Shown here one piece after another: positions 1-22,282 of a stretch of 64,000 nucleotides of DNA. Both the position numbers and the translations under genes were made by a program. The first letter of the stretch is position 1. Every line of letters begins with the position of its first letter. Under the pieces are notes generated by a model. The model saw only the letters and a list, made by a program, of their open reading frames with translations, searched no databases and was not told the DNA's origin. This DNA is from Crossaster papposus (taxonomy: Eukaryota > Echinodermata > Asteroidea > Velatida > Solasteridae), in contig JBAIAA010000653.1 of the NCBI GenBank assembly GCA_037893245.1, positions 1 to 64,000 of the forward strand, written 5' to 3'.

Positions 1-1839
1 TAGGGATATGCCGATTGTAGACCAAATCTTAAATATATAGTAGTAGGGATATGCCGATTGTAGACCAAATCTTAAATATGTAGTAGTAGGGATATGCCGA
101 TTGTAGACAAAAATTTTAATATGTAGTAGTTGGGTTATGCCGATTGTAGACCAAATCTTAAATATGTAGTAGTAGGGATATGCCGATTGTAGACCAAATC
201 CTAAATATGTAGTAGTAGGGATATGCCGATTGTAGACCAAATCTTAAATATGTAGTAGTAGGGATATGCCGATTGTAGACCAAATCTTAAATATGTAGTA
301 GTAGGGATATGCCGATTGTAGACCAAATCTTAAATATGTAGTAGTAGGGATATGCCGATTGTAGACCAAATCTTAAATATGTAGTAGTATGGAAATGCCG
401 ATTGTAGACCAAATCTTAAATATGTAGTAGTAGGGATATGCCGATTGTAGACCAAATCTTAAATATGTAGTAGTAGGGATATGCCGATTGTATACCAAAT
501 CTTAAATATGTAGTAGTAGGGATATGCCGATTGTAGACCAAATCTTAAATATGTAGTAGTAGGGATATGCCGATTGTAGACCAAATCTTAAATATGTAGT
601 AGTAGGGATATGCCGATTATAGACCAAATCTTAAATATGTAGTAGTAGGGATATGCCGATTGTAGACAAAATTTGTAATATGTAGTAGTTGGGTTATGCC
701 GATTGTAGACCAAATCTTAAATATGTAGTAGTAGGGATATGCCGATTGTAGACCAAATCTTAAATATGTAGTAGTAGGGATATGCCGATTGTAGACCAAA
801 TCTTAAATATGTAGTAGTAGGGATATGCCGATTGTAGACCAAATCTTAAATATGTAGTAGTAGGGATATGACGATTGTAGACCAAATCTTAAATATGTAG
901 TAGTAGGGATATGCCGATTGTAGACCAAATCTTAAATATGTAGTAGTGGGGATATGCCGATTGTAGACCAAATCTTAAATATGTAGTAGTAGGGATATGC
1001 CGATTGTAGACCAAATCTTAAATATGTAGTAGTAGGGATATGCCGATTGTAGACCAAATCTTAAATATGTAGTAGTAGGGATATGCCGATTGTAGACCAA
1101 ATCTTAAATATGTAGTAGTAGGGATATGCCGATTGTAGACCAAATCTTAAATATGTAGTAGTAGGGATATGCCGATTGTAGACCAAATCTTAAATATGTA
1201 GTAGTAGGGATATGCCGATTGTAGACCAAATCTTAAATATGTAGTAGTAGGGATATGCCGATTGTATACGAAATCTTAAATATGTAGTAGTAGGGATATG
1301 CCGATTGTAGACCAAATCTTAAATATGTAGTAGTAGGGATATGCCGATTGTAGACCAAATCTTAAATATGTAGTAGTAGGGATATGCCGATTGTAGACCA
1401 AATCTTAAATATGTAGTAGTAGGGATATGCCGATTGTAGACAAAATTTTTAATATGTAGTAGTTGGGTTATGCCGATTGTAGACCAAATCTTAAATATGT
1501 AGTAGTAGGGATATGCCGATTGTAGACCAAATCTTAAATATGTAGTAGTAGGGATATGCCGATTGTAGACCAAATCTTAAATATGTAGTAGTAGGGATAT
1601 GCCGATTGTAGACCAAATCTTAAATATGTAGTAGTAGGGATATGCCGATTGTAGACCAAATCTTAAATATGTAGTAGTAGGGATATGCCGATTGTAGACC
1701 AAATCTTAAATATGTAGTAGTAGGGATATGCCGATTGTAGACCAAATCTTAAATATGTAGTAGTAGGGATATGCCGATTGTAGACCAAATCTTAAATATG
1801 TAGTAGTAGTAGGGATATGCCGATTGTAGACAAATCTTA

Positions 1840-1956
1840 AAAAACTCAATTTGATCTGATAACAAAACAAACGCACATTTATTATTATGTAAAGGGAAAG
1901 AAGTGTGCAGTAGAAATAAACACCTGATGTGGGAACAAGCGCTCGAGTTAAATATG
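1840..1956. repeat. Single-unit cassette (exemplar)
   Basis: The cassette replaces the normal monomer after AAATCTTAAA. A head of about 48 bp (ACTCAATTTGATCTGATAAC, then an A-rich tract ending in ATTATTATG) is followed by one 67-bp unit starting TAAAGGGAAAGAAGTGTGCA and ending CGAGTTAAATATG, which flows into the next TAGTAGTAGGG. In this class the upstream monomer usually reads GTAGACAAATC (one C lost), the head usually has AAACGCAC, and the unit usually ends AGCGCTCGAG. I count about 15 such cassettes. Confidence 0.92.
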
Positions 1957-2121
1957 TAGTAGTAGGGATATGCCGATTGTAGACCAAATCTTAAATATGT
2001 AGTAGTAGGGATATGCCGATTGTAGACCAAATATTAAATATGTAGTAGTAGGGATATGCCGATTGTAGACCAAATCTTAAATATGTAGTAGTAGGGATAT
2101 GCCGATTGTAGACCAAATCTT

Positions 2122-2306
2122 AAAAAACTCAATTTGATCTGATAACAAAACAAACTCACATTTATTATTATGTAAAGGGAAAGAAGTGTGCAGTAGAAAT
2201 AAACACCTGATGTGGGAACAAGCCCTCGAGTTAAATATGTAAAGGGAAAGAAGTGTGCAGTAGAAATAAACACCTGATGTGGGAACAAGCCCTCGAGTTA
2301 AATATG
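2122..2306. repeat. Double-unit cassette (exemplar)
   Basis: Same head as the single-unit form but with AAACTCAC, followed by two tandem 67-bp units, both ending AGCCCTCGAG. This is the commonest form (about 29 in the window) and dominates 10-18 kb and 36-61 kb. In many right-arm copies the second unit reads GGGAAATAAG instead of GGGAAAGAAG. Confidence 0.92.
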
Positions 2307-5300
2307 TAGTAGTAGTAGGGATATGCCGATTTTAGACCAAATCTTAAATATGTAGTAGTAGGGATATGGCGATTGTAGACCAAATCTTAAATATGTAGTA
2401 GAAGGGATATGCCGATTGTAGACCAAATCTTAAATATGTAGTAGTAGGGATATGCCGATTGTAGACCAAATCTTAAATATGTAGTAGTAGGGATATGCCG
2501 ATTGTAGACCAAATCTTAAATATGTAGTAGTAGGGATATGCCGATTGTAGACCAAATCTTAAATATGTAGTAGTATGGATATGCCGATTGTAGACCAAAT
2601 CTTAAATATGTAGTAGTAGGGATATGCCGATTGTATACCAAATCTTAAATATGTAGTAGTAGGGATATGCCGATTGTAGACCAAATCTTAAATATGTAGT
2701 AGTAGGGATATGCCGATTGTAGACCAAATCTTAAATATGTAGTAGTAGGGATATGCCGATTGTAGACAAAATCTTAAATATGTAGTAGTAGGGATATGCC
2801 AATTGTAGACCAAATCTTAAATATGTAGTAGTAGGGATATGCCGATTATAGACCAAATCTTAAATATGTAGTAGTAGGGATATGCCGATTGTAGACAAAA
2901 TTTTTAATATGTAGTAGTTGGGTTATGCCGATTGTAGACCAAATCTTAAATATGTAGTAGTAGGGATATGCCGATTGTAGACCAAATCTTAAATATGTAG
3001 TAGTAGGGATATGCCGATTGTAGACCAAATCTTAAATATGTAGTAGTAGGGATATGCCGATTGTAGACCAAATCTTAAATATGTAGTAGTAGGGATATGC
3101 CGATTGTAGACCAAATCTTAAATATGTAGTAGTAGGGATATGCCGATTGTAGACCAAATCTTAAATATGTAGTAGTGGGGATATGCCGATTGTAGACCAA
3201 ATCTTAAATATGTAGTAGTAGGGATATGCCGATTGTAGACCAAATCTTAAATATGTAGTAGTAGGGATATGCCGATTGTAGACCAAATCTTAAATATGTA
3301 GTAGTAGGGATATGCCGATTGTAGACCAAATCTTAAATATGTAGTAGTAGGGATATGCCGATTGTAGACCAAATCTTAAATATGTAGTAGTATGGATATG
3401 CCGATTGTAGACCAAATCTTAAATATGTAGTAGTAGGGATATGCCGATTGTAGACCAAATCTTAAATATGTAGTAGTAGGGATATGCCGATTGTATACCA
3501 AATCTTAAATATGTAGTAGTAGGGATATGCCGATTGTAGACCAAATCTTAAATATGTAGTAGTAGGGATATGCCGATTGTAGACCAAATCTTAAATATGT
3601 AGTAGTAGGGATATGCCGATTGTAGACCAAATCTTAAATATGTAGTAGTAGGGATATGCCGATTGTAGACAAATTTTTTAATATGTAGTAGTTGGGTTAT
3701 GCCGATTGTAGACCAAATCTTAAATATGTAGTAGTAGGGATATGCCGATTGTAGACCAAATCTTAAATATGTAGTAGTAGGGATATGCCGATTGTAGACC
3801 AAATCTTAAATATGTAGTAGTAGGGATATGCCGATTGTAGACCAAATCTTAAATATGTAGTAGTAGGGATATGCCGATTGTAGACCAAATCTTAAATATG
3901 TAGTAGTAGGGATATGCCGATTGTAGACCAAATCTTAAATATGTAGTAGTAGGGATATGCCGATTGTAGACCAAATCTTAAATATGTAGTAGTAGGGATA
4001 TGCCGATTGTAGACCAAATCTTAAATATGTAGTAGTAGGGATATGCCGATTGTAGACAAATCTTAAAAAACTCAATTTGATCTGATAACAAAACAAACGC
4101 ACATTTATTATTATGTAAAGGAAAAGAAGTGTGCAGTAGAAATAAACACCTGATGTGGGAACAAGCGCTCGAGTTAAATATGTAGTAGTAGGGATATGCC
4201 GATTGTAGACCAAATCTTAAATATGTAGTAGTAGGGATATGCCGATTGTAGACTAAATCTTAAATATGTAGTAGTAGGGATATGCCGATTGTAGACCAAA
4301 TCTTAAATATGTAGTAGTGGGGATATGCCGATTGTAGACCAAATCTTAAATATGTAGTAGTAGGGATATGCCGATTGTAGACCAAATCTTAAATATGTAG
4401 TAGTAGGGATATGCCGATTGTAGACCAAATCTTAAATATGTAGTAGTAGGGATATGCCGATTGTAGACCAAATCTTAAATATGTAGTAGTAGGGATATGC
4501 CGATTGTAGACCAAATCTTAAATATGTAGTAGTATGGATATGCCGATTGTAGACCAAATCTTAAATATGTAGTAGTAGGGATATGCCGATTGTAGACCAA
4601 ATCTTAAATATGTAGTAGTAGGGATATGCCGATTGTATACCAAATCTTAAATATGTAGTAGTAGGGATATGCCGATTGTAGACCAAATCTTAAATATGTA
4701 GTAGTAGGGATATGCCGATTGTAGACCAAATCTTAAATATGTAGTAGTAGGGATATGCCGATTGTAGACCAAATCTTAAATATGTAGTAGTAGGGATATG
4801 CCGATTGTAGACAAAATTTTTAATATGTAGTAGTTGGGTTATGCCGATTGTAGACCAAATCTTAAATATGTAGTAGTAGGGATATGCCGATTGTAGACCA
4901 AATCTTAAATATGTAGTAGTAGGGATATGCCGATTGTAGACCAAATCTTAAATATGTAGTAGTAGGGATATGCCGATTGTAGACTAAATCTTAAATATGT
5001 AGTAGTAGGGATATGCCGATTGTAGACCAAATCTTAAATATGTAGTAGTGGGGATATGCCGATTGTAGACCAAATCTTAAATATGTAGTAGTAGGGATAT
5101 GCCGATTGTAGACCAAATCTTAAATATGTAGTAGTAGGGATATGCCGATTGTAGACCAAATCTTAAATATGTAGTAGTAGGGATATGCCGATTGTAGACC
5201 AAATCTTAAATATGTAGTAGTAGGGATATGCCGATTGTAGACCAAATCTTAAATATGTAGTAGTATGGATATGCCGATTGTAGACCAAATCTTAAATATG

Positions 5301-6260
5301 TAGTAGTAGGGATATGCCGATTGTAGACCAAATCTTAAATATGTAGTAGTAGGGATATGCCGATTGTATACCAAATCTTAAATATGTAGTAGTAGGGATA
5401 TGCCGATTGTAGACCAAATCTTAAATATGTAGTAGTAGGGATATGCCGATTGTAGACCAAATCTTAAATATGTAGTAGTAGGGATATGCCGATTGTAGAC
5501 CAAATCTTAAATATGTAGTAGTAGGGATATGCCGATTGTAGACAAAATTTTTAATATGTAGTAGTTGGGTTATGCCGATTGTAGACCAAATCTTAAATAT
5601 GTAGTAGTAGGGATATGCCGATTGTAGACCAAATCTTAAATATGTAGTAGTAGGGATATGCCGATTGTAGACCAAATCTTAAATATGTAGTAGTAGGGAT
5701 ATGCCGATTGTAGACCAAATCTTAAATATGTAGTAGTAGGGATATGCCGATTGTAGACCAAATCTTAAATATGTAGTAGTAGGGATATGCCGATTGTAGA
5801 CCAAATCTTAAATATGTAGTAGTAGGGATATGCCGATTGTAGACCAAATCTTAAATATGTAGTAGTAGGGATATGCCGATTGTAGACCAAATCTTAAATA
5901 TGTAGTAGTAGGGATATGCCGATTGTAGACAAATCTTAAAAAACTCAATTTGATCTGATAACAAAACAAACGCACATTTATTATTATGTAAAGGGAAAGA
6001 AGTGTGCAGTAGAAATAAACACCTGATGTGGGAACAAGCGCTCGGGTTAAATATGTAGTAGTAGGGATATGCCGATTTTAGACCAAATCTTAAATATGTA
6101 GTAGTAGGGATATGCCGATTGTAGACTAAATCTTAAATATGTAGTAGTAGGGATATGCCGATTGTAGACCAAATCTTAAATATGTAGTAGTAGGGATATG
6201 CCGATTGTAGACTAAATCTTAAATATGTAGTAGTAGGGATATGCCGATTGTAGACCAAAT

Positions 6261-6516
6261 CTAAAAAAAACTCAATTTGATCTGATAACATAACAAACTC
6301 ACATTTATTATTATGTAAAGGGAAAGAAGTGTGCAGTATAAATAAACACCTGATGTGGGAACAAGCCATCGAGTTAAATATGTAAAGGGAAAGAAGTGTG
6401 CAGTAGAAATAAACACCTGATGTGGGAACAATCTCTCGAGTTAAATATGTAAAGGGAAAGAAGTGTGCAGTAGAAATAAACACCTGATGTGGGAACAAGC
6501 GCTCGAGTTAAATATG
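6261..6516. repeat. Triple-unit cassette (exemplar)
   Basis: The head is preceded by CTAAAAAAAACTC and carries AACATAAC. Three tandem 67-bp units follow: the first with GTATAAATAA, the second ending CAATCTCTCGAG, the third ending AGCGCTCGAG or AGCCCTCGAG. I count ten such cassettes. The constant order of the three unit variants shows that all triple cassettes descend from one ancestor copied with the array, not from repeated independent expansion. Confidence 0.92.
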
Positions 6517-9500
6517 TAGTAGTAGGGATATGCCGATTGTAGACCAAATCTTAAATATGTAGTAGTAGGGATATGCCGATTGTAGACTAAATCTTAAATA
6601 TGTAGTAGTAGGGATATGCCGATTGTAGACCAAATCTTAAATATGTAGTAGTGGGGATATGCCGATTGTAGACCAAATCTTAAATATGTAGTAGTAGGGA
6701 TATGCCGATTGTAGACCAAATCTTAAATATGTAGTAGTAGGGATATGCCGATTGTAGACCAAATCTTAAATATGTAGTAGTAGGGATATGCCGATTGTAG
6801 ACCAAATCTTAAATATGTAGTAGTAGGGATATGCCGATTGTAGACCAAATCTTAAATATGTAGTAGTATGGATATGCCGATTGTAGACCAAATCTTAAAT
6901 ATGTAGTAGTAGGGATATGCCGATTGTAGACCAAATCTTAAATATGTAGTAGTAGGGATATGCCGATTGTATACCAAATATTAAATATGTAGTAGTAGGG
7001 ATATGCCGATTGTAGACCAAATCTTAAATATGTAGTAGTAGGGATATGCCGATTGTAGACCAAATCTTAAATATGTAGTAGTAGGGATATGCCGATTGTA
7101 GACCAAATCTTAAATATGTAGTAGTAGGGATATGCCGATTGTAGACAAAATTTTTAATATGTAGTAGTTGGGTTATGCCGATTGTAGACCAAATCTTAAA
7201 TATGTAGTAGTAGGGATATGCCGATTGTAGACCAAATCTTAAATATGTAGTAGTAGGGATATGCCGATTGTAGACCAAATCTTAAATATGTAGTAGTAGG
7301 GATATGCCGATTGTAGACCAAATCTTAAATATGTAGTAGTAGGGATATGCCGATTGTAGACCAAATCTTAAATATGTAGTAGTAGGGATATGCCGATTGT
7401 AGACCAAATCTTAAATATGTAGTAGTAGGGATATGCCGATTGTAGACCAAATCTTAAATATGTAGTAGTAGGGATATGCCGATTGTAGACCAAATCTTAA
7501 ATATGTAGTAGTAGGGATATGCCGATTGTAGACAAATCTTAAAAAACTCAATTTGATCTGATAACAAAACAAACGCACATTTATTATTATGTAAAGGGAA
7601 AGAAGTGTGCAGTAGAAATAAACACCTGATGTGGGAACAAGCGCTCGAGTTAAATATGTAGTAGTAGGGATATGCCGATTGTAGACCAAATCTTAAATAT
7701 GTAGTAGTAGGGATATGCCGATTGTAGACCAAATCTTAAATATGTAGTAGTAGGGATATGCCGATTGTAGACTAAATCTTAAATATGTAGTAGTAGGGAT
7801 ATGCCGATTGTAGACCAAATCTAAAAAAAACTCAATTTGATCTGATAACATAACAAACTCACATTTATTATTATGTAAAGGGAAAGAAGTGTGCAGTATA
7901 AATAAACACCTGATGTGGGAACAAGCCCTCGAGTTAAATATGTAAAGGGAAAGAAGTGTGCAGTAGAAATAAACACCTGATGTGGGAACAATCTCTCGAG
8001 TTAAATATGTAAAGGGAAAGAAGTGTGCAGTAGAAATAAACACCTGATGTGGGAACAAGCCCTCGAGTTAAATATGTAGTAGTAGGGATATGCCGATTGT
8101 AGACCAAATCTTAAATATGTAGTAGTAGGGATATGCCGATTGTAGACCAAATCTTAAATATGTAGTAGTAGGGATATGCCGATTGTAGACCAAATCTTAA
8201 ATATGTAGTAGTAGGAATATGCCGATTGTAGACCAAATCTTAAATATGTAGTAGTAGGGATATGCCGATTGTAGACCAAATCTTAAATATGTAGTAGTAG
8301 GGATATGCCGATTGTATACCAAATCTTAAATATGTAGTAGTAAGGATATGCCGATTGTAGACCAAATCTTAAATATGTAGTAGTAGGGATATGCCGATTG
8401 TAGACCAAATCTTAAATATGTAGTAGTAGGGATATGCCGATTGTAGACCAAATCTTAAATATGTAGTAGTAGGGATATGCCGATTGTAGACCAAATCTTA
8501 AATATGTAGTTGTAGGGATATGCCGATTGTAGACCAAATCTTAAATATGTAGTAGTAGGGATATGCCGATTGTAGACCAAATCTTAAATATGTAGTAGTA
8601 GGGATATGCCGATTGTAGACCAAATCTTAAATATGTAGTAGTAGGGATATGCCGATTGTAGACCAAATCTTAAATATGTAGTAGTAGGGATATGCCGATT
8701 GTAGACCAAATCTTAAATATGTAGTAGTAGGGATATGCCGATTGTAGACCAAATCTTAAATATGTAGTAGTAGGGATATGCCGATTGTAGACCAAATCTT
8801 AAATATGTAGTAGTAGGGATATGCCGATTGTAGACCAAAACTTAAATATGTAGTAGTAGGGATATGCCGATTGTAGACCAAATCTTAAATATGTAGTAGT
8901 AGGGATATGCCGATTGTAGACCAAATCTTAAATATGTAGTAGTAGGGATATGCCGATTGTAGACCAAATCTTAAATATGTAGTAGTAGGGATATGCCGAT
9001 TGTAGACAAATCTTAAAAAACTCAATTTGATCTGATAACAAAACAAACTCACATTTATTATTATGTAAAGGGAAAGAAGTGTGCAGTAGAAATAAACACC
9101 TGATGTGGGAACAAGCGCTCGAGTTAAATATGTAGTAGTAGGGATATGCCGATTGTAGACCAAATCTTAAATATGTAGTAGTAGGGATATGCCGATTGTA
9201 GACTAAATCTTAAATATGTAGTAGTAGGGATATGCCGATTGTAGACCAAATCTTAAATATGTAGTAGTAGGGATATGCCGATTGTAGACTAAATCTTAAA
9301 TATGTAGTAGTAGGGATATGCCGATTGTAGACCAAATCTAAAAAAAACTCAATTTGATCTGATAACATAACAAACTCACATTTATTATTATGTAAAGGGA
9401 AAGAAGTGTGCAGTATAAATAAACACCTGATGTGGGAACAAGCCCTCGAGTTAAATATGTAAAGGGAAAGAAGTGTGCAGTAGAAATAAACACCTGATGT

Positions 9501-10521
9501 GGGAACAATCTCTCGAGTTAAATATGTAAAGGGAAAGAAGTGTGCAGTAGAAATAAACACCTGATGTGGGAACAAGCCCTCGAGTTAAATATGTAGTAGT
9601 AGGGATATGCCGATTGTAGACCAAATCTTAAATATGTAGTAGTAGGGATATGCCGATTGTAGACCAAATCTTAAATATGTAGTAGTAGGGATATGCCGAT
9701 TGTAGACCAAATCTTAAATATGTAGTAGTAGGAATATGCCGATTGTAGACCAAATCTTAAATATGTAGTAGTAGGGATATGCCGATTGTAGACCAAATCT
9801 TAAATATGTAGTAGTAGGGATATGCCGATTGTATACCAAATCTTAAATATGTAGTAGTAAGGATATGCCGATTGTAGACCAAATCTTAAATATGTAGTAG
9901 TAGGGATATGCCGATTGTAGACCAAATCTTAAATATGTAGTAGTAGGGATATGCCGATTGTAGACCAAATCTTAAATATGTAGTAGTAGGGATATGCCGA
10001 TTGTAGACCAAATCTTAAATATGTAGTTGTAGGGATATGCCGATTGTAGACCAAATCTTAAATATGTAGTAGTAGGGATATGCCGATTGTAGACCAAATC
10101 TTAAATATGTAGTAGTAGGGATATGCCGATTGTAGACCAAATCTTAAATATGTAGTAGTAGGGATATGCCGATTGTAGACCAAATCTTAAATATGTAGTA
10201 GTAGGGATATGCCGATTGTAGACCAAATCTTAAATATGTAGTATTAGGGATATGCCGATTGTAGACCAAATCTTAAATATGTAGTAGTAGGGATATGCCG
10301 ATTGTAGACCAAATCTTAAATATGTAGTAGTAGGGATATGCCGATTGTAGACCAAATCTTAAATATGTAGTAGTAGGGATATGCCGATTGTAGACCAAAT
10401 CTTAAATATGTAGTAGTAGGGATATGCCGATTGTAGACCAAATCTTAAATATGTAGTAGTAGGGATATGCCGATTGTAGACCAAATCTTAAATATGTAGT
10501 AGTAGGGATATGCCGATTGTA

Positions 10522-13500
10522 GACCAAATCTTAAATATGTAGTATTAGGGATATGCCGATTGTAGACCAAATCTTAAATATGTAGTAGTAGGGATATGCC
10601 GATTGTAGACCAAATCTTAAATATGTAGTAGTAGGGATATGCCGATTGTAGACCAAATCTTAAATATGTAGTAGTAGTGATATGCCGATTGTAGACCAAA
10701 TCTTAAATATGTAGTAGTAGGGATATGCCGATTGTAGACCAAATCTTTAAAAACTCAATTTGATCTGATAACAAAACAAACTCACATTTATTATTATATA
10801 AAGGGAAAGAAGTGTGCAGTAGAAATAAACACCTGATGTGGGAACAAGCCCTCGAGTTAAATATGTAGTAGTAGGGATATGCCGATTGTAGACCAAATCT
10901 TAAATATGTAGTATTAGGGATATGCCGATTGTAGACCAAATCTTAAATATGTAGTAGTAGGGATATGCCGATTGTAGACCAAATCTTAAATATGTAGTAG
11001 TAGGGATATGCCGATTGTAGACCAAATCTTAAATATGTAGTAGTAGTAGGGATATGCCGATTGTAGACCAAATCTTAAATATGTAGTAGTAGTAGGGATA
11101 TGCCGATTGTAGACCAAATCTTAAATATGTAGTAGTAGGGATATGCCGATTGTAGACCAAATCTTAAATATGTAGTAGTAGGGATATGCCGATTGTATAC
11201 CAAATCTTAAATATGTAGTAGTAGGGATATGCCGATTGTAGACCAAATCTTAAATATGTAGTAGTAGGGATATGCCGATTGTAGACCAAATCTTAAATAT
11301 GTAGTAGTAGGGATATGCCGATTGTAGACCAAATCTTAAATATGTAGTAGTAGGGATATGCCGATTGTAGACCAAATCTTAAATATGTAGTAGTAGGGAT
11401 ATGCCGATTGTAGACCAAATCTTAAATATGTAGTAGTAGGGATATGCCGATTGTAGACCAAATCTTAAATATGTAGTAGTAGGGATATGCCGATTGTAGA
11501 CCAAATCTTAAATATGTAGTAGTAGGGATATGCCGATTGTAGACCAAATCTTAAAAAACTCAATTTGATCTGATAACAAAACAAACTCACATTTATTATT
11601 ATGTAAAGGGAAAGAAGTGTGCAGTAGAAATAAACACCTGATGTGGGAACAAGCCCTCGAGTTAAATATGTAAAGGGAAAGAAGTGTGCAGTAGAAATAA
11701 ACACCTGATGTGGGAACAAGCCCTCGAGTTAAATATGTAGTAGTAGGGATATGCCGATTGTAGACCAAATCTTAAATATGTAGTAGTAGGGATATGCCGA
11801 TTGTAGACCAAATCTTAAATATGTAGTAGTAGGGATATGCCGATTGTATACCAAATCTTAAATATGTAGTAGTAGGGATATGCCGATTGTAGACCAAATC
11901 TTAAATATGTAGTAGTAGGGATATGCCGATTGTAGACCAAATATTAAATATGTAGTAGTAGGGATATGCCGATTGTAGACCAAATCTTAAATATGTAGTA
12001 GTAGGGATATGCCGATTGTAGACCAAATCTTAAATATGTAGTAGTAGGGATATGCCGATTGTAGACCAAATCTTAAATATGTAGTAGTAGGGATATGCCG
12101 ATTGTAGACCAAATCTTAAATATGTAGTAGTAGGGATATGCCGATTGTAGACCAAATCTTAAATATGTAGTAGTAGGGATATGCCGATTGTAGACCAAAT
12201 CTTAAATATGTAGTAGTAGGGATATGCCGATTGTAGACCAAATCTTAAATATGTAGTAGTAGGGATATGCCGATTGTAGACCAAATCTTAAATATGTAGT
12301 AGTAGGGATATGCCGATTGAAGACCAAATCTTAAATATGTAGTAGTAGGGATATGCCGATTGTAGACCAAATCTTAAATATGTAGTAGTAGGGATATGCC
12401 GATTGTAGACCAAATCTTAAATATGTAGTAGTAGGGATATGCCGATTGTAGACCAAATATTAAATATGTAGTAGTAGGGATATGCCGATTGTAGACCAAA
12501 TCTTAAATATGTAGTAGTAGGGATATGCCGATTGTAGACCAAATCTTAAAAAACTCAATTTGATCTGATAATAAAACAAACTCACATTTATTATTATGTA
12601 AAGGGAAAGAAGTGTGCAGTCGAAATAAACACCTGATGTGGGAACAAGCCCTCGAGTTAAATATGTAAAGGGAAAGAAGTGTGCAGTAGAAATAAACACC
12701 TGATGTGGGAACAAGCCCTCGAGTTAAATATGTAGTAGTAGGGATATGCCGATTGTAGACCAAATCTTAAATATGTAGTAGTAGGGATATGCCGATTGTA
12801 GACCAAATCTTAAATATGTAGTAGAAGGGATATGCCGATTGTAGACCAAATCTTAAATATGTAGTAGTAGGGATATGCCGATTGTAGACCAAATCTTAAA
12901 TATGTAGTAGTAGGGATATGCCGATTGTAGACCAAATCTTAAATATGTAGTAGTAGGGATATGCCGATTGTAGACCAAATCTTAAATATGTAGTAGTAGG
13001 GATATGCCGATTGTAGACCAAATCTTAAATATGTAGTAGTAGGGATATGCCGATTGTAGACCAAATCTTAAATATGTAGTAGTAGGGATATGCCGATTGT
13101 ATACCAAATCTTAAATATGTAGTAGTAGGGATATGCCGATTGTAGACCAAATCTTAAATATGTAGTAGTAGGGATATGCCGATTGTAGACCAAATCTTAA
13201 ATATGTAGTAGTAGGGATATGCCGATTGTAGACCAAATCTTAAATATGTAGTAGTAGGGATATGCCGATTGTAGACCAAATCTTAAATATGTAGTAGTAG
13301 GGATATGCCGATTGTAGACCAAATCTTAAATATGTAGTAGTAGGGATATGCCGATTGTAGACCAAATCTTAAATATGTAGTTGTAGGGATATGCCGATTG
13401 TAGACCAAATCTTAAATATGTAGTAGTAGGGATATGCCGATTGTAGACCAAATCTTAAATATGTAGTAGTAGGGATATGTCGATTGTAGACCAAATATTA

Positions 13501-15118
13501 AATATGTAGTAGTAGTGATATGCCGATTGTAGACCAAATCTTAAATATGTAGTAGTAGGGATATGCCGATTGTAGACCAAATCTTAAATATGTAGTAGTA
13601 GGGATATGCCGATTGTAGACCAAATCTTAAATATGTAGTAGTAGGGATATGCCGATTGTAGACCAAATCTTAAATATGTAGTAGTAGGGATATGCCGATT
13701 GTAGACCAAATCTTAAATATGTAGTAGTATGGATATGCCGATTGTAGACCAAATCTTAAATATGTAGTAGTAGGGATATGCCGATTGTAGACCAAATCTT
13801 AAATATGTAGTAGTAGGGATATGCCGATTGTAGACCAAATATTAAATATGTAGTAGTAGGGATATGCCGATTGTAGACCAAATCTTAAATATGTAGTAGT
13901 AGGGATATGCCGATTGTAGACCAAATCTTAAAAAACTCAATTTGATCTGATAACAAAACAAACTCACATTTATTATTATGTAAAGGGAAAGAAGTGTGCA
14001 GTAGAAATAAACACCTGATGTGGGAACAAGCCCTCGAGTTAAATATGTAAAGGGAAAGAAGTGTGCAGTAGAAATAAACACCTGATGTGGGAACAAGCCC
14101 TCGAGTTAAATATGTAGTAGTAGGGATATGCCGATTGTAGACCAAATCTTAAATATGTAGTAGTAGGGATATGCCGATTGTAGACCAAATCTTAAATATG
14201 TAGTAGTAGGGATATGCCGATTGTAGACCAAATCTTAAATATGTAGTAGTAGGGATATGCCGATTGTAGACCAAATCTTAAATATGTAGTAGTAGGGATA
14301 TGCCGATTGTAGACCAAATCTTAAATATGTAGTAGTAGTAGGGATATGCCGATTGTAGACCAAATCTTAAATATGTAGTAGTAGGGATATGCCGATTGTA
14401 GACCAAATCTTAAATATGTAGTAGTAGGGATATGCCGATTGTAGACCAAATCTTAAATATGTAGTTGTAGGGATATGCCGATTGTAGACCAAATCTTAAA
14501 TATGTAGTAGTAGGGATATGCCGATTGTAGACCAAATCTTAAATATGTAGTAGTAGGGATATGCCGATTGTAGACCAAATATTAAATATGTAGTAGTAGG
14601 GATATGCCGATTGTAGACCAAATCTTAAATATGTAGTAGTAGGGATATGCCGATTGTAGACCAAATCTTAAAAAACTCAATTTGATCTGATAACAAAACA
14701 AACTCACATTTATTATTATGTAAAGGGAAAGAAGTGTGCAGTAGAAATAAACACCTGATGTGGGAACAAGCCCTCGAGTTAAATATGTAAAGGGAAAGAA
14801 GTGTGCAGTAGAAATAAACACCTGATGTGGGAACAAGCCCTCGAGTTAAATATGTAGTAGTAGTAGGGATATGCCGATTGTAGACCAAATCTTAAATATG
14901 TAGTAGTAGGGATATGGCGATTGTAGACCAAATCTTAAATATGTAGTAGAAGGGATATGCCGATTGTAGACCAAATCTTAAATATGTAGTAGTAGGGATA
15001 TGCCGATTGTAGACCAAATCTTAAATATGTAGTAGTAGGGATATGCCGATTGTAGACCAAATCTTAAATATGTAGTAGTAGGGATATGCCGATTGTAGAC
15101 CAAATCTTAAATATGTAG
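10522..15118. repeat. Satellite block A2
   Basis: Plain 43-bp monomers with one single-unit cassette (10747-10865, with ATTATATAAAG at the head/unit junction) and four double-unit cassettes (11552-11737, 12547-12732, 13929-14114, 14669-14854). Cassette neighbourhoods repeat at steps of 995 bp (11465 to 12460) and 740 bp (13842 to 14582). The stretch 14582-15118 recurs at 17988-18524, an offset of 3,406 bp. Confidence 0.9.
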
Positions 15119-18100
15119 TAGTATGGATATGCCGATTGTAGACCAGATCTTAAATATGTAGTAGTAGGGATATGCCGATTGTATACCAAATCTTAAATAT
15201 GTAGTAGTAGGGATATGCCGATTGTAGACCAAATCTTAAATATGTAGTAGTAGGGATATGCCGATTGTAGACCAAATCTTAAATATGTAGTAGTAGGGAT
15301 ATGCCGATTGTAGACCAAATCTTAAATATGTAGTAGTAGGGATATGCCGATTGTAGACCAAATCTTAAATATGTAGTAGTAGGGATATGCCGATTGTAGA
15401 CCAAATCTTAAATATGTAGTTGTAGGGATATGCCGATTGTATACCAAATCTTAAATATGTAGTAGTAGGGATATGCCGATTGTAGACCAAATCTTAAATA
15501 TGTAGTAGTAGGGATATGCCGATTGTAGACCAAATCTTAAATATATAGTAGTAGGGATATGCCGATTGTAGACCAAATCTTAAATATGTAGTAGTAGGGA
15601 TATGCCGATTGTAGACAAAATTTTTAATATGTAGTAGTTGGGTTATGCCGATTGTAGACCAAATCTTAAATATGTAGTAGTAGGGATATGCCGATTGTAG
15701 ACCAAATCTTAAATATGTAGTAGTAGGGATATGCCGATTGTAGACCAAATCTTAAATATGTAGTAGTAGGGATATGCCGATTGTAGACCAAATCTTAAAT
15801 ATGTAGTAGTAGGGATATGCCGATTGTAGACCAAATCTTAAATATGTAGTAGTAGGGATATGCCGATTGTAGACCAAATCTTAAATATGTAGTAGTATGG
15901 ATATGCCGATTGTAGACCAAATCTTAAATATGTAGTAGTAGGGATATGCCGATTGTAGACCAAATCTTAAATATGTAGTAGTAGGGATATGCCGATTGTA
16001 GACCAAATCTTAAATATGTAGTAGTAGGGATATGCCGATTGTATACCAAATCTTAAATATGTAGTAGTAGGGATATGCCGATTGTAGACCAAATCTTAAA
16101 TATGTAGTAGTAGGGATATGCCGATTGTAGACCAAATCTTAAATATGTAGTAGTAGGGATATGCCGATTATAGACCAAATCTTAAATATGTAGTAGTAGG
16201 GATATGCCGATTGTAGACAAAATTTTTAATATGTAGTAGTTGGGTTATGCCGATTGTAGACCAAATCTTAAATATGTAGTAGTAGGGATATGCCGATTGT
16301 AGACCAAATCTTAAATATGTAGTAGTAGGGATATGCCGATTGTAGACCAAATCTTAAATATGTAGTAGTAGGGATATGCCGATTGTAGACCAAATCTTAA
16401 ATATGTAGTAGTAGGGATATGACGATTGTAGACCAAATCTTAAATATGTAGTAGTAGGGATATGCCGATTGTAGACCAAATCTTAAATATGTAGTAGTGG
16501 GGATATGCCGATTGTAGACCAAATCTTAAATATGTAGTAGTAGGGATATGCCGATTGTAGACCAAATCTTAAATATGTAGTAGTAGGGATATGCCGATTG
16601 TAGACCAAATCTTAAATATGTAGTAGTAGGGATATGCCGATTGTAAACCAAATCTTAAATATGTAGTAGTAGGGATATGCCGATTGTAGACCAAATCTTA
16701 AATATGTAGTAGTATGGATATGCCGATTGTAGACCAAATCTTAAATATGTAGTAGTAGGGATATGCCGATTGTAGACCAAATCTTAAATATGTAGTAGTA
16801 GGGATATGCCGATTGTATACCAAATCTTAAATATGTAGTAGTAGGGATATGCCGATTGTAGACCAAATCTTAAATATGTAGTAGTAGGGATATGCCGATT
16901 GTAGACCAAATCTTAAATATGTAGTAGTAGGGATATGCCGATTGTAGACCAAATCTTAAATATGTAGTAGTAGGGATATGCCGATTGTAGACAAAATTTT
17001 TAATATGTAGTAGTTGGGTTATGCCGATTGTAGACCAAATCTTAAATATGTAGTAGTAGGGATATGCCGATTGTAGACCAAATCTTAAATATGTAGTAGT
17101 AGGGATATGCCGATTGTAGACCAAATCTTAAATATGTAGTAGTAGGGATATGCCGATTGTAGACCAAATCTTAAATATGTAGTAGTAGGGATATGCCGAT
17201 TGTAGACCAAATCTTAAATATGTAGTAGTAGGGATATGCCGATTGTAGACCAAATCTTAAATATGTAGTAGTAGGGATATGCCGATTGTAGACCAAATCT
17301 TAAATATGTAGTAGTAGGGATATGCCGATTGTAGACCAAATCTTAAATATGTAGTAGTAGGGATATGCCGATTGTAGACCAAATCTTAAATATGTAGTAG
17401 TAGGGATATGCCGATTGTAGACCAAATCTTAAATATGTAGTAGTAGGGATATGCCGATTGTAGACCAAATCTTAAATATGTAGTAGTAGGGATATGCCGA
17501 TTGTAGACCAAATCTTAAATATGTAGTAGTAGGGATATGCCGATTGTAGACCAAATCTTAAATATGTAGTAGTATGGATATGCCGATTGTAGACCAAATC
17601 TTAAATATGTAGTAGTAGGGATATGCCGATTGTAGACCAAATCTTAAATATGTAGTAGTAGGGATATGCCGATTGTATACCAAATCTTAAATATGTAGTA
17701 GTAGGGATATGCCGATTGTAGACCAAATCTTAAATATGTAGTAGTAGGGATATGCCGATTGTAGACCAAATCTTAAATATGTAGTAGTAGGGATATGCCG
17801 ATTGTAGACCAAATCTTAAATATGTAGTAGTAGGGATATGCCGATTGTAGACCAAATCTTAAATATGTAGTTGTATGGATATGCCGATTGTAGACCAAAT
17901 CTTAAATATGTAGTAGTAGGGATATGCCGATTGTAGACCAAATCTTAAATATGTAGTAGTAGGGATATGCCGATTGTAGACCAAATATTAAATATGTAGT
18001 AGTAGGGATATGCCGATTGTAGACCAAATCTTAAATATGTAGTAGTAGGGATATGCCGATTGTAGACCAAATCTTAAAAAACTCAATTTGATCTGATAAC

Positions 18101-18528
18101 AAAACAAACTCACATTTATTATTATGTAAAGGGAAAGAAGTGTGCAGTAGAAATAAACACCTGATGTGGGAACAAGCCCTCGAGTTAAATATGTAAAGGG
18201 AAAGAAGTGTGCAGTAGAAATAAACACCTGATGTGGGAACAAGCCCTCGAGTTAAATATGTAGTAGTAGTAGGGATATGCCGATTGTAGACCAAATCTTA
18301 AATATGTAGTAGTAGGGATATGGCGATTGTAGACCAAATCTTAAATATGTAGTAGAAGGGATATGCCGATTGTAGACCAAATCTTAAATATGTAGTAGTA
18401 GGGATATGCCGATTGTAGACCAAATCTTAAATATGTAGTAGTAGGGATATGCCGATTGTAGACCAAATCTTAAATATGTAGTAGTAGGGATATGCCGATT
18501 GTAGACCAAATCTTAAATATGTAGTAGT
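15119..18528. repeat. Satellite block A3, with a third copy of the left family
   Basis: From 15119 to about 17124 this matches 22279 to about 24241 (offset 7,160 bp, changing to 7,117 after one extra monomer) and therefore also block A1. It carries the TTGGGTTATG marker monomers near 15612, 16215 and 16990. The later part, about 17860-18528, repeats 14460-15122 and holds one double-unit cassette at 18075-18260. The block ends at the transposon boundary. Confidence 0.85.
18525..18528. repeat. Target-site duplication TAGT, left
   Basis: These are the last four satellite bases before CACGGC. The related uninterrupted satellite reads GTAGTAGTATGG at 15115-15126. The left flank covers it through 15122 and the right flank starts again at 15119, so 15119-15122 (TAGT) is present twice around the island. 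A 5-bp reading (GTAGT) is possible if the right element end is placed one base earlier. Confidence 0.75.
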
Positions 18529-18567
18529 CACGGCTGTTTCACACGTTAATAAAGTGCGCCCTCTGTC
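18529..18567 (+). repeat. Left terminal inverted repeat (imperfect)
   Basis: Starts CACGGCTGTTTCACACG, then TAATAAAGT and GCGCCCTC (18547-18563). The same three blocks occur in the same order on the opposite strand at the right end, where they are spaced wider (40 bp from the tip to TAATAAAGT, against 18 bp here). The match is too patchy to be a young identical terminal repeat. Confidence 0.65.
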
Positions 18568-18591
18568 GTCAAAACTTTCCCGCGGCGTATA

Positions 18592-18599
18592 TGACGTCA
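18592..18599. promoter_or_regulatory. CRE palindrome TGACGTCA
   Basis: A perfect 8-bp CREB/ATF site within the CpG-rich left end of the transposon, 64 bp from the tip. It may be chance, or may serve the plus strand. No gene starts near it. Confidence 0.3.
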
Positions 18600-19497
18600 T
18601 TGTGTTTATGCACGCGCGTTGTTTACGCGATAACCTTTGACCAAATACACAGCCATTCATAAAAACACCTATTGCAGGATCTTACAGGCATGTCATACAT
18701 ATTCATTGGGGTCACCATCATAAATAATAATTTATCTGACCCCACAAAGAATTTTCTAGACTGGTGCACTCCGTGAACTCCCCTTTGTGCTGATTCAATT
18801 GCGTGATCACATGGCTTTTAGAGGCGCGATAAAATTAACGGCTGTCGGAGAGACGGTTATTTTTATAAATGAAAATGTATTACAAAGTCCTTCAAATTCT
18901 CAGTGAGGACACTTCAGATGTTGCTTTCTACAATAACACCAGTGGTAAGTGCAGGACATTTTGATTTGGTTGAGGACAAGTTGGGGTGAAAATGAGCAAG
19001 AAATTCCGTTGCTCGCGTGTACGTTTGCCCCCAAATCATAAACACGCACACCGTGTATGTACGTAACATGTACATGTGTTTGGGGCGAGATTGCACCGCG
19101 CGCGGTACGTGCACACAACGGTTATAATTTAAAGGTCCAAACGCATGGCGTTCGTACTGCTGGGTATTACTACTGGGCCTAAAATACGTTGTTGCATGGA
19201 CATGGTTCATCTATAAAATTCATTTCGTGGTCTGTAAACGTTAGGCCTATTCTGTATTCAGCACGAAAGATCAATAACATTAAAAATAACATGTTAAACT
19301 TTCAAGAATACACATTGGCCATTGCATTTAAAATTGTTAAAATGTTACTGTTAATACTAGTAAAAACTAAAATGAAATGGGTCAACTTGTGTACGAGTTT
19401 ATCTAGTCTACGAGTACGACTAGGAGTACGGGAATAGGGACATCATGTATGTAGTTAACTTTTATCATAAATACCCGAGTTTAACTACCATACTAGT

Positions 19498-19550
19498 TTT
19501 GAGAATTGAGATCATCTTATCAATTTTATGAGATGATCTCAATTCTCAAA
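19498..19550. repeat. Perfect 20-bp inverted repeat (hairpin)
   Basis: The left arm 19498-19517 (TTTGAGAATTGAGATCATCT) is exactly complementary to 19531-19550, with a 13-base AT-rich loop. No T-run follows it as in a bacterial terminator, and none is expected in an animal. Possible readings: a foldback remnant, a nested tiny inverted-repeat element, or an RNA hairpin in the 3' region of the N-RAG transcript. Confidence 0.85.
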
Positions 19551-19702
19551 TCGTAAACAAATAAAAAAACTGTAGGCCTAAGGCTAAGCCTTGTACTTTT
19601 GTACAGTACAGGCCAAATGTACGACATTGTAAAAACAACAACAATTGCAAGTGAGAAAGGAATTGTTTATACATTGTACAATAAATGTACATGTATATTT
19701 TT

Positions 19703-19708
19703 TTTATT
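19703..19708 (-). terminator. Candidate polyadenylation signal AATAAA
   Basis: First AATAAA on the minus strand downstream of the N-RAG stop that I noted, about 220 bp beyond it, in an AT-rich tract. Only the hexamer supports it. Confidence 0.3.
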
Positions 19709-19928
19709 TATGATGTCATGGTTGCAACACATAACTTATTAACTTAACTCATAAGCAAGAAGTAAAGAATTGTCATCCTGGTCATGCTACCTTAAACTGC
19801 GGAAGCGTATTAAATACACTTGCAGAGTACAGATACATGTACATGATGAAAAAAGTACATTTGCATAGTCATGACTTGCATGTAAAAGGGCTCAAGCAAG
19901 ATAATGGCTTTATATTTTGTTTGCCGAA

Positions 19929-20195
19929 TTATATTAATTTCCTCATTTGGTTCCAACCCAGGTGGCAGTCTTGCATCATGGCTAAAGCACCATCAGCAGT
20001 TGAAGTTGTGTGGTGGTTGGTCTGTGACGAACTGGATGGCAGACACTGGTTTTCATCGTCCTGCTGGATTTCGGGAGCTACTTTGCTGATATTTTGCCGG
20101 AAAGCTGCTATTGCAACAGTTCGTTGTCTCTTGTATGAGGTGGAGATATTTTTACTTGACTTTGATGGCTTAGTCACCTTTTGAATATGAGCAGG
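19929..20195 (-). CDS. N-RAG exon 2 (C-terminal tail)
   Basis: Starts in phase 0 after the acceptor with PAHIQKVTKPSKSSKN. It then carries a basic SYKRQRTVAIAAFRQNI stretch, a polar low-complexity tract (SSSSQTNHHTTSTADG), and ends ALAMMQDCHLGWNQMRKLI before TAA at 19931-19929. The closing ALxxM...LxxxQMRKL resembles the short helix that leads into the transposase core in N-RAG-type transposon proteins (from memory of the family). Here it stops at once, so the catalytic part is missing or was removed. I see no strong donor before the stop. Confidence 0.6.
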   Translation of the reverse strand, partial: PAHIQKVTKPSKSSKNISTSYKRQRTVAIAAFRQNISKVAPEIQQDDENQCLPSSSSQTNHHTTSTADGALAMMQDCHLGWNQMRKLI

Positions 20196-20491
20196 CTGGG
20201 AGAAAAATGATGCATTAAAAAAACAATTGGTTTTTTTAAACGACACAGACCTGATCCTTCCTCGATCACTCTAAATGTCATGTGTTTTGAAATTTTAAAA
20301 TGGAATGAACTCGACTAAAGTCTAAAGTAAACAGAAGGAAAAAAAGTGAAATGAAATAATATTCATAAAATAAAATATTAATGAAATTTAATATTTACGA
20401 AATAAAATGGTATGCGATATTGTGTTACCTTATACAGTATCTTGAAATCATGTTAATTTATGTGTAAGGTAATGCCCATGTGTGTACTTAC
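20196..20491 (-). other. Phase-0 intron of the N-RAG gene
   Basis: Runs from donor GTAAGT (20491-20486) to an acceptor AG at 20197-20196 preceded by a pyrimidine run (TTTTTCTCCCAG). Length 296 bp, AT-rich. Both sides are phase 0, so the frame is kept across the splice, which supports the model. An unspliced reading meets stops quickly. Confidence 0.7.
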
Positions 20492-20950
20492 TCGACCTCC
20501 AGTTCGTATGGGTGTGGCCATTCCTGGCTGGGCATTTTGAAGCTTGAGCCACACCCACTTGTCAGTGGCCTCTTCGATTTCAGTGGGAATCGGTTTGCCA
20601 GATTCGTGCGTTTGAGCCAGACGTTTGAGTAAACGGGCCGCATTGGTTGGGTTTAGAATTTCAGGCTGCTCTTTCATTGGGCTTACTGGCCATTGTGATG
20701 AAGAGGCAACGGATGAGTGTTTAGCGAACTTAACTTGACAGTCGTGATGCAGTAATCGTTGAACTTTGCCAATATCGTTACACCTGGTACAGATTACATT
20801 CAGGTTTTCCAGCTGAAACCTGAGAACCCTGGGACTTTCAGTTACATCTTGAAATCTGATTTTTTGATTGCATATGGGGCAGTTTATTACTTCATTTGTT
20901 GCATACCTGTAACACAGTGTCAAACATCTTGCACAGTAATTGTGTTTGTA
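20492..20950 (-). CDS. N-RAG exon 1, second part (RING end and following finger)
   Basis: A second frame on the same strand, overlapping the first. It holds the rest of the RING (His-x2-Cys-x2-Cys in KHNYCARC, then NCPICNQK) and a following finger with ICTRCN and HHDC, in the position of the RAG1 finger next to the RING. After it comes a linker with NAARLLKRLAQTHESGKPIP and WVWLKLQNAQP. The exon ends at a consensus splice donor: GTAAGT on the minus strand at 20491-20486, after a complete Arg codon (phase 0). Confidence 0.72.
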
Positions 20951-21527
20951 CACAAGGTTGTCCAATGATGCAAAGGCAAATTCCACATGTGATGTCAAAT
21001 TCGACGGGGTATTCAATTTCAAAAGTGTCCGTTTTCACAGTTACATGCTGGAAGATGTTTCCTTCAATCAGTGAAAAGGGGAGAGGAGGAGAGGGGCTGC
21101 GACTTTGTGAAGCTTTTGGTCTGCCACGCTTAGGTTTGCACTGTACATGTGATCCTGCTGAAATTTGTTCATTGTACAAATCACAGACGAAACAGTGGCC
21201 AGTTCTTGTATGCTTTGGCCAAGTTCTTTGAATAGGCTGCGTTCTACTCAAAGTGCTCAGAGTGTAACACCTCGTATCACTTCTACAGTGCCTTAATTTT
21301 CTGCAGCACTTTTCGCACAAATTTGATGGATGCTGATCCACACTGTCCTCCCAGGTACTTATTTCATAGATGCTAAACAACTCCTTTCTGTACTCGCGCA
21401 CTAATGATATTTTACTCCTGCTTCCACGAAGAGTAATTTTAATTCTGTTCGCACAAACTCTGCAGATCTTTCCGAGTGCGTCTTGGTGGAATTTAAAACT
21501 CATGACACTGATAAAACTTTGAATCAT
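20941..21527 (-). CDS. N-RAG exon 1, first part (zinc module, basic patch, RING start)
   Basis: The open frame from the ATG at 21527 encodes about 195 residues up to the frame change. Cys22 and Cys25 (KICRVCANR), then His66-Pro67 with Cys71 and Cys74 (HPSNLCEKC), form the RAG1-type first zinc module. Cys112 and Cys115 (HCFVCD) follow after WPKHTRTG. A basic KRGRPK lies at 133-138, then a Ser/Pro-rich linker, then the first RING pair Cys181 and Cys184 (ITCGICL). A second in-frame ATG at 21503 (MSFKFHQDALGK) may be the true start: a TATATAAAG at 21535-21543 would place transcription between the two ATGs, and family members commonly begin shortly before the CRxC motif. Beyond 20940 this frame reads on to a stop at 20892 without RING sequence. 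Confidence 0.72.
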
Positions 21528-21534
21528 CCATGTA

Positions 21535-21543
21535 CTTTATATA
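21535..21543 (-). promoter_or_regulatory. TATA-like box TATATAAAG
   Basis: Lies 8 bp upstream of the first ATG (21527) and about 31 bp upstream of the second (21503). If used, transcription would start near 21512 and the second ATG would be the start codon. It could equally be chance in AT-rich DNA. Confidence 0.35.
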
Positions 21544-22175
21544 ACGCTTACTAAAACTTAAGAATAACCCTCTTGAGAGAGAACAAAAAATTTCGCCTAG
21601 TGTGGTTTTTGGGAGCAACCGGTGAGACAACTCGACCGCGCGACACGCAATACCGCACACTACACGCTGTACACAGTCGAGTTGTCCCACATTGCGTTGT
21701 TTTGTATTGCCCGCCGTTTCCGATTGTATCGCTGGTATCCGCCAACGAGCGCGCTAACTTAATGCGTCGATGGGAGCCAACACGGGACGACGTGTGAACG
21801 TCCGCGCGAATTTGGATTTGCGGGGTTCCGGGGCACATTTAACAAGGCTAAACAAACTATTTAACAAAATGTCCCACATTTTTATATATTATAAACGTAT
21901 AGTAAATGTCATTAACTTTACTGGTATGAATTTATACCGAAGGATTGAACTTTGTTTTGTTTTTACGAGTCATTTTCAAGAGCCGATAATTATTTAACGA
22001 ACGTTACGACCGATGCAATAATGCATCCAAAAGTCCTCAAAATCTGTTCTGTGTAAATATTATGCATATGCACGAGTGAAAAGTCTGTTCATTGTTAAGC
22101 TTTTATAATTTAAACTGTTTTTTAAAGTCCTTGTTACGTTTTTTATCAATTTTTACATTGTAATTAGGCGACCCT
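21544..22175. other. Transposon right part, upstream of the N-RAG gene
   Basis: No supported coding sequence. It contains the CpG-rich tract 21610-21830 and then AT-rich DNA. Frames such as 21573-21797 plus and 21551-21838 minus overlap each other on opposite strands without motifs. Probably 5' leader or promoter DNA of the minus-strand gene. Confidence 0.5.
21626..21686. repeat. 11-bp inverted repeat in a CpG-rich stretch
   Basis: GACAACTCGAC at 21626-21636 pairs exactly with GTCGAGTTGTC at 21676-21686, separated by 39 bp. The surrounding 21610-21830 is clearly richer in CpG than the rest of the island and lies upstream of the N-RAG start, so it could be a small promoter island. Confidence 0.5.
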
Positions 22176-22200
22176 GGGCGCCGCCATCTTTGATTGGATT
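22176..22200 (-). promoter_or_regulatory. CCAAT box next to a YY1-type motif
   Basis: On the minus strand AATCCAATC is followed at once by AAAGATGGCGGCGCCC. AAGATGGCGGC is the well-known YY1/initiator-linked motif of animal TATA-less promoters, and CCAAT is the NF-Y core. The pair sits just inside the right terminal repeat, about 650 bp upstream of the N-RAG start and reading toward it, so it is a plausible transposon promoter with a long 5' leader. No transcript evidence is available. Confidence 0.4.
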
Positions 22201-22213
22201 TTAAAAAACTATT

Positions 22214-22278
22214 GAGGGCGCTGCAGCGAGCGCTCTTTACTTTATTAGCACACATCCTATGCGCGCGGATATGCCGTG
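22214..22278 (-). repeat. Right terminal inverted repeat (imperfect)
   Basis: Read on the minus strand from 22278: CACGGC, a GCGCGC-rich spacer, TAATAAAGT (complement of 22239-22247), a spacer holding GAGCGCTCGCTGCAGC, then GCGCCCTC (complement of 22214-22221). The spacer contains its own short palindromes (GAGCGCTC, CTGCAG), which could be transposase sub-terminal sites. Confidence 0.62.
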
Positions 22279-22282
22279 TAGT
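22279..22282. repeat. Target-site duplication TAGT, right
   Basis: These are the first four bases after GCCGTG. They continue directly into TAGTATGGATATGCCG, the same variant monomer found at 15119 onward. Confidence 0.75.

Follow-up and report, generated by a model that had tools for sequence, protein, structure and literature searches.

A 64-kb stretch of Crossaster papposus DNA (64,000 nucleotides, analysed whole and called the window here) raises the question of whether the N-terminal part of RAG1 can travel in a mobile element on its own, separated from a catalytic core. A sequence-only reading of this locus had proposed that positions 19929–21527 belong to a transposon carrying a RAG1 N-terminal protein and mobilised with that module alone. 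We set the limits of the element where copies at unrelated sites stop and inspected its ends and flanks, and found that the region lies within a larger element of 3,750 bp (18529–22278), with its gene on the minus strand and with the terminal sequences CACGGC...GCCGTG. Copies elsewhere in the 1.02-Gb genome match 18529–22278 and all stop at its ends except the one on contig C1255, which is the window copy repeated together with its satellite flanks and may be its other haplotype. The element is bordered by a TAGT target site duplication (left copy, 18525–18528; right copy, 22279–22282), and removal of the element and one TAGT restores the 43-bp satellite at 119 of 120 bases; the N-terminal protein is indeed carried by a mobile element, as had been claimed. 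Matching 4-bp flanks were found in all ten insertions of this subfamily (family 1) that have both ends in view, namely eight short copies (L001–L008), the C152 element and C117:1190338. This set includes C1255, and since C1255 repeats the window copy with its flanks, nine of the ten insertions are independent.

The 3,750-bp element is the sole long unique island of the window, nearly all of which (1–18528 and 22283–64000) is occupied by the 43-bp satellite with intermixed 67-bp sub-repeats; the satellite also dominated a repeat search across 16–26 kb. A copy of a second subfamily (L033, contig C707, ~2766–3591) directly abuts this 43-bp satellite with its GCCGTG end, which brings the insertions into the satellite to at least two. 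Two other family-1 copies have unusual surroundings: the left flank of L005 resembles the element's own end (TTTCACACGTTA), which suggests insertion beside or into another copy, and on contig C293 (~388157–429182) the terminal 200 bp are split by ~34 kb, apparently through a later insertion.

The RAG1 N-terminal motifs and the RING reported earlier are present on minus-strand frames of the island. One frame (20892–21536, 214 aa) contains CRVC, HPSNLCEKC, CFVC, KRGRP and the first half of the RING, a second (20453–21034, 193 aa) contains the other half of the RING and the CxxC-HxxxC motif, and a third (19929–20270) contains exon 2. In our gene model, exon 1 (20492–21503, minus strand; ATG at 21503, predicted donor GGTCGA/gtaagt) covers the Chapa zinc-binding domain, the RING and a zinc finger and has a broken frame in this copy, and exon 2 (19936–20195, minus strand) has had its last bases cut by a large deletion. 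Taken singly, the window frames match profiles weakly: RAG1_imp_bd of Pfam was reached at E 0.05, below the cut-off, and the best PDB match was LD15650p (E 0.012), with RING proteins at E 0.6 or worse. The expected likeness to RAG1 emerged at the level of the family, from N-terminal profiles built from four subfamilies of the same genome (family 1, C67, C808 and C648). Among the best 60 of 119 PDB matches at E≤1, the whole N-terminus matched RAG1 (3jbw) first, at E 3.5e-8 over the RING and zinc finger, followed by the BRCA1 RING (6.9e-8) and by many other RING proteins lower down. With the Chapa part alone, the sole PDB match at E≤1 was RAG1 (21wb), with E 9.8e-5 over the whole chain and 0.004 in its best stretch. 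All four N-terminal profiles matched Pfam RAG1_imp_bd (best 1.1e-5) and likewise zf-AD (best 1.6e-4), and the RING is present in all four subfamilies. Judged from these RAG1 N-terminal profiles, the family has the predicted Chapa zinc-finger domain and RING of Chapaev transposons. The order CRxC, HPxxLCxxC, CxxC, RING, CxxC-H is conserved across the four subfamilies; C67, C808 and C648 are 37–45% identical over the first 200 residues. In exon 1 of C67 (L039, 3424–4638), a 56-residue segment that follows the zinc finger is duplicated internally in direct orientation.

The copy in the window has no catalytic core, as the sequence-only reading had stated: of ten exon translations, only those of exons 1 and 2 match the island at E≤0.01. 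The missing part is found in a full-length sibling, C152. This element is 6,755 bp long, has the ends of the window copy and is flanked by a different target duplication, GTTA; the two sequences disagree at 9 of 3,730 shared sites (99.76% identity). The two copies diverge left of window position 19936, where C152 has 2,961 further bases. Exons 3–10 of C152 (2543–5257) lie inside this stretch without a window counterpart (2378–5338); these eight further exons encode a DDE-type core (Pfam DUF1280) and carry GGDKGG, GDYELL, RYCCIYC, LPSLHISLGV, YHGKSFVGNHVHKCC, TPKLHLLEDH and NEQGGE. The junction of the deletion in the window lies at 19935–19936 on the minus strand; the loss starts within the final bases of exon 2 and has a microhomology of one base, and comparison with C152 together with the exon translation search leaves 18529–19935 (minus strand) as the retained 3' non-coding end. 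Within that end, a 26-bp inverted repeat occupies 19498–19550, with 1 base between its arms.

All eight short copies aligned (L001–L008), which are located at different sites, have the same 2,961-bp deletion at the same junction. Six of them, the window copy included, have two further losses on the minus strand: 30 bp just before the RING (window 20990–20992, relative to C152) and 11 bp causing a frameshift within the RING (window 20945–20946, an approximate position worked out by hand from the alignment). The other two, L007 and L008, retain the RING region and have open frames of 374 aa. Since the 2,961-bp deletion is in all eight copies and the RING-region losses are in six, the large deletion came first. 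The six frameshifted copies are 99.8–100% identical, yet they occupy distinct sites with distinct duplications; from such differences in site and duplication, both short forms moved after the large deletion. This movement would have needed transposase supplied in trans.

Most N-terminal loci of the genome also have core exons. An N-terminal query gave 74 matches at 71 loci genome-wide, and two core exons (the last exon and the exon with the first aspartate, first-D) were searched for downstream on the same strand within a distance limit. With the best 73 of 88 last-exon matches counted, both core exons were found at at least 52 of the 71 loci and one or more at at least 56, single exons being the last exon at three loci and the first-D exon at one; neither was found at 15 loci, of which twelve belong to family 1 (eleven short copies and the C209 fragment) and three (C117:1532968, C430 and C599) do not. 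At C117:1532968, core exons lie 21–23 kb downstream, past the limit used. These counts and the collinear sibling bear on a reading in which the island is an N-RAG-TP-type element, that is, a member of a separate class composed of a RAG1 N-terminal module only and moved by an unrelated transposase. The window copy and at least ten other family-1 copies do have exon 1 without the core exons searched, coreless family-1 copies have moved, and the cited passages on Aplysia describe an element composed of RAG1 N-terminal-like sequence (PMC8355894). However, the missing stretch is collinear in C152 between the same ends, both core exons accompany most N-terminal loci at the counts just given, and the short copies agree with C152 at 99.4–99.8% of sites. 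We therefore regard a separate N-terminus-only class as very improbable. The likeness to N-RAG-TP, a mobile element with RAG1 N-terminal-like sequence and no core in those passages, extends to the window copy and not to its family, whose core is preserved in C152; the coreless form here is the deletion product of a core-bearing sibling. The core-bearing sibling and the core exons at most N-terminal loci instead make the window element a non-autonomous Chapaev derivative.

Chapaev DNA transposons were reportedly introduced by Kapitonov and Jurka in 2007, and a 4-bp target duplication is a hallmark of the group. All four cores assembled from exon translations matched Pfam DUF1280 (best E 2.5e-19); this assignment holds for the family, the core being absent from the window copy itself. 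In a survey of RNase H-like enzymes, DUF1280 corresponds to Chapaev transposases and is placed in one small clade with RAG1 (PMC3985635). The ends agree with this placement: CA..TG termini and a duplication of 2–5 bp, given for the CMCT group in a further source (PMC12730594), were found in ten of ten family-1 insertions, and also in C469 and C697, where the boundaries were set by the drop in homology. Chapaev proteins, as described, combine a Chapa domain, a RING (in two subgroups) and a DDE transposase in one protein (PMC4411706). Our family shows this same succession together with a DUF1280 core and CAC ends; it differs in that the window copy is without the core, and the family was placed by such descriptions rather than by reference sequences. 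We consider it almost certain that the island derives by internal deletion from a cut-and-paste DNA transposon of the Chapaev type and is non-autonomous.

Another very improbable reading is a RAG-like transposon (RAGL, ProtoRAG or Transib), directly related to the V(D)J recombinase, in which the core was lost. It would account for the RAG1 matches of the N-terminal profiles and for ends that begin with CAC, and the join of exon 1 and exon 2 is modelled to read GGRP in two of the four subfamilies, which we take to resemble the nonamer-binding motif of RAG1. The duplications argue against it, at 4 bp in ten of ten family-1 insertions; the literature gives invariably 5 bp for protostome RAGL and predominantly 5 bp for ProtoRAG, Transib and RAG (PMC7204232). 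The core also argues against it, being of the DUF1280 type: at E≤1 the four cores had no match to Pfam RAG1 (PF12940). No RAG1 chain was among the PDB matches of the core at E≤10, and a direct hhalign comparison with RAG1 reached a non-significant E of 0.4 over 91 columns in the region of the second aspartate and C-x2-C. Since this direct comparison is not significant, the case for kinship between the core and RAG1 is made by DUF1280, by shared motifs and by published work, in which C-x2-C and H-x(3-4)-H are common to EnSpm, Mirage, Chapaev, Transib and RAG1 (PMC12730594). In the genome, PF12940 gave no match, with controls that were equally silent, and a RAG1-core protein query, which recovers RAG1L (6b40) at 5.4e-68, gave a single match, to a distant element at E 0.004. 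That element (L065, contig C669) has CVLC and an H-x4-H...E stretch and may likewise belong to the EnSpm/Transib/RAG1 group. The Chapaev-type family shares with RAGL and ProtoRAG a RAG1-type N-terminus, CAC ends and asymmetric paired ends (PMC7204232, PMC8289069), and differs from them in its 4-bp rather than 5-bp duplication, its DUF1280 core and A/T runs that end at ~25 and 38. Among other loci retrieved from this assembly, mitochondrial COX1 (L064, contig C1841) has AAA at asparagine and ATA at isoleucine positions; these positions are expected in COX1, and such a reading of AAA and ATA is the codon use of echinoderm mitochondria.

Full-length elements were found in all four subfamilies (C152 for family 1, and C67, C808 and C648), in answer to the earlier proposal that relatives with a DDE core be sought in the host genome, and they span 6.4 to 7.7 kb. 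The divergent C67, C808 and C648 have the same exon order, with the N-terminus and core exons on one strand. The splice model places GT-AG joins at 33 of the 36 junctions, four of the 33 scoring below zero, and has none for e4–e5 and e8–e9 in C67 or for e9–e10 in C152. The common phases of the model are 0,2,2,2,1,0,0,0,1, an agreement that is partly built in since a common phase was selected for the four elements together.

The two ends of the element are unlike each other. At the 5' end (22240–22278, minus strand), CACGGCA is followed by a 24-nt spacer and the A/T run TAATAAA at bases 32–38 from the end; at the 3' end (18529–18554, plus strand), CACGGCT is followed by the A/T run TTAATAAA at bases 18–25. 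Both ends could be resolved in seven subfamilies (family 1, C67, C808, C648, C60, C854 and C469). In all seven, the far edge of the longest A/T run lies at base 38 counted from the 5' end and at bases 24–26 counted from the 3' end, a difference of 12 to 14 (sign test over the seven pairs, 0.016); the shuffle tests of the ends treat these related subfamilies as unrelated. C469 has the terminal letters CACGTAT and boundaries taken from the drop in homology, yet the same layout. In C584/C137, the 5' end starts with CACG and its A/T run ends at 37, and the 3' homology edge shows no such end. In a survey of eight further loci, ends with matching flanks were obtained at C60, C117:1917 and C854 and at none of C1024, C584 and C424:819; the ends of C117:1917 repeat those of C808, which also yielded a weaker second candidate pair. 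Since matching flanks partly guided the choice of ends, these eight loci included, such duplications are weaker evidence than those of family 1, C469 and C697. One subfamily, C678/C1318, has CACGGC at both sides with unlike flanks, and these candidate ends depart from the 25/38 layout, their longest A/T runs ending at 31 and 35.

The layout recalls vertebrate recombination signals, which consist of a heptamer, a 12- or 23-bp spacer and the nonamer ACAAAAACC, and whose A-run edges fall by our count at ~26 and ~37; the source of this description also gives symmetric ends for most Transib families and spacers of 27/31 bp for ProtoRAG (PMC8289069). That the Chapaev elements here carry paired unlike recombination signals, with a CAC heptamer-like end and an A/T-run edge at 24–26 (3') against 38 (5'), is a tentative reading that we hold to be rather unlikely, and slightly less likely in view of C678/C1318, whose candidate ends, if true, count against it. 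The 5' A/T run could alternatively be a TATA-like promoter box. Asymmetric paired ends in seven of seven resolved subfamilies are apparently new, as the literature searched (Repbase Reports aside) yielded no description of asymmetric Chapaev ends with fixed A/T-run positions. They raise the testable idea of paired unlike ends outside the RAG lineage: were a Chapaev transposase to accept only pairs of unlike ends, a rule like 12/23 would either predate the RAG/Transib branch or have arisen twice, and it would be a property of proteins in which Chapa, RING and core are already united.

These features are consistent with the following course of events. The full-length element would encode one multi-exon transposase with a RAG1-like N-terminus (Chapa zinc fingers and RING) followed by a DDE-type core bearing C-x2-C and H-x4-H motifs, and this transposase probably binds the 5' and the 3' end, which are unlike, cleaves at CAC and joins the element to target DNA cut with a 4-bp stagger. 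Excision of a copy by the transposase of a full-length relative, followed by incomplete gap repair, may have removed the 2,961 bp with exons 3–10. The lineage of the window copy would later have lost the 30 bp before the RING and the 11 bp in it, and the deleted copies, which moved repeatedly to new sites, were presumably mobilised in trans by transposase from full-length relatives.

The island had been thought useful for understanding how the two halves of RAG1 were joined. Its relatives keep the N-terminus and the core in one order and on one strand, the core of the window copy was lost through an internal deletion, and C152 has both halves. As complete core-bearing relatives exist in the same genome, the island is no evidence of a front half travelling alone, and that Chapaev proteins unite Chapa, RING and core had already been published (PMC4411706). 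For the origin of RAG1, a misleading data point is thereby withdrawn: an element that has the N-terminus and no core may simply be what a deletion left of one with both halves, and the same question of derivation applies to N-RAG-TP of Aplysia. What the locus points to instead is a genome where Chapaev loci with a core are numerous and keep the module order of RAG1 intact.
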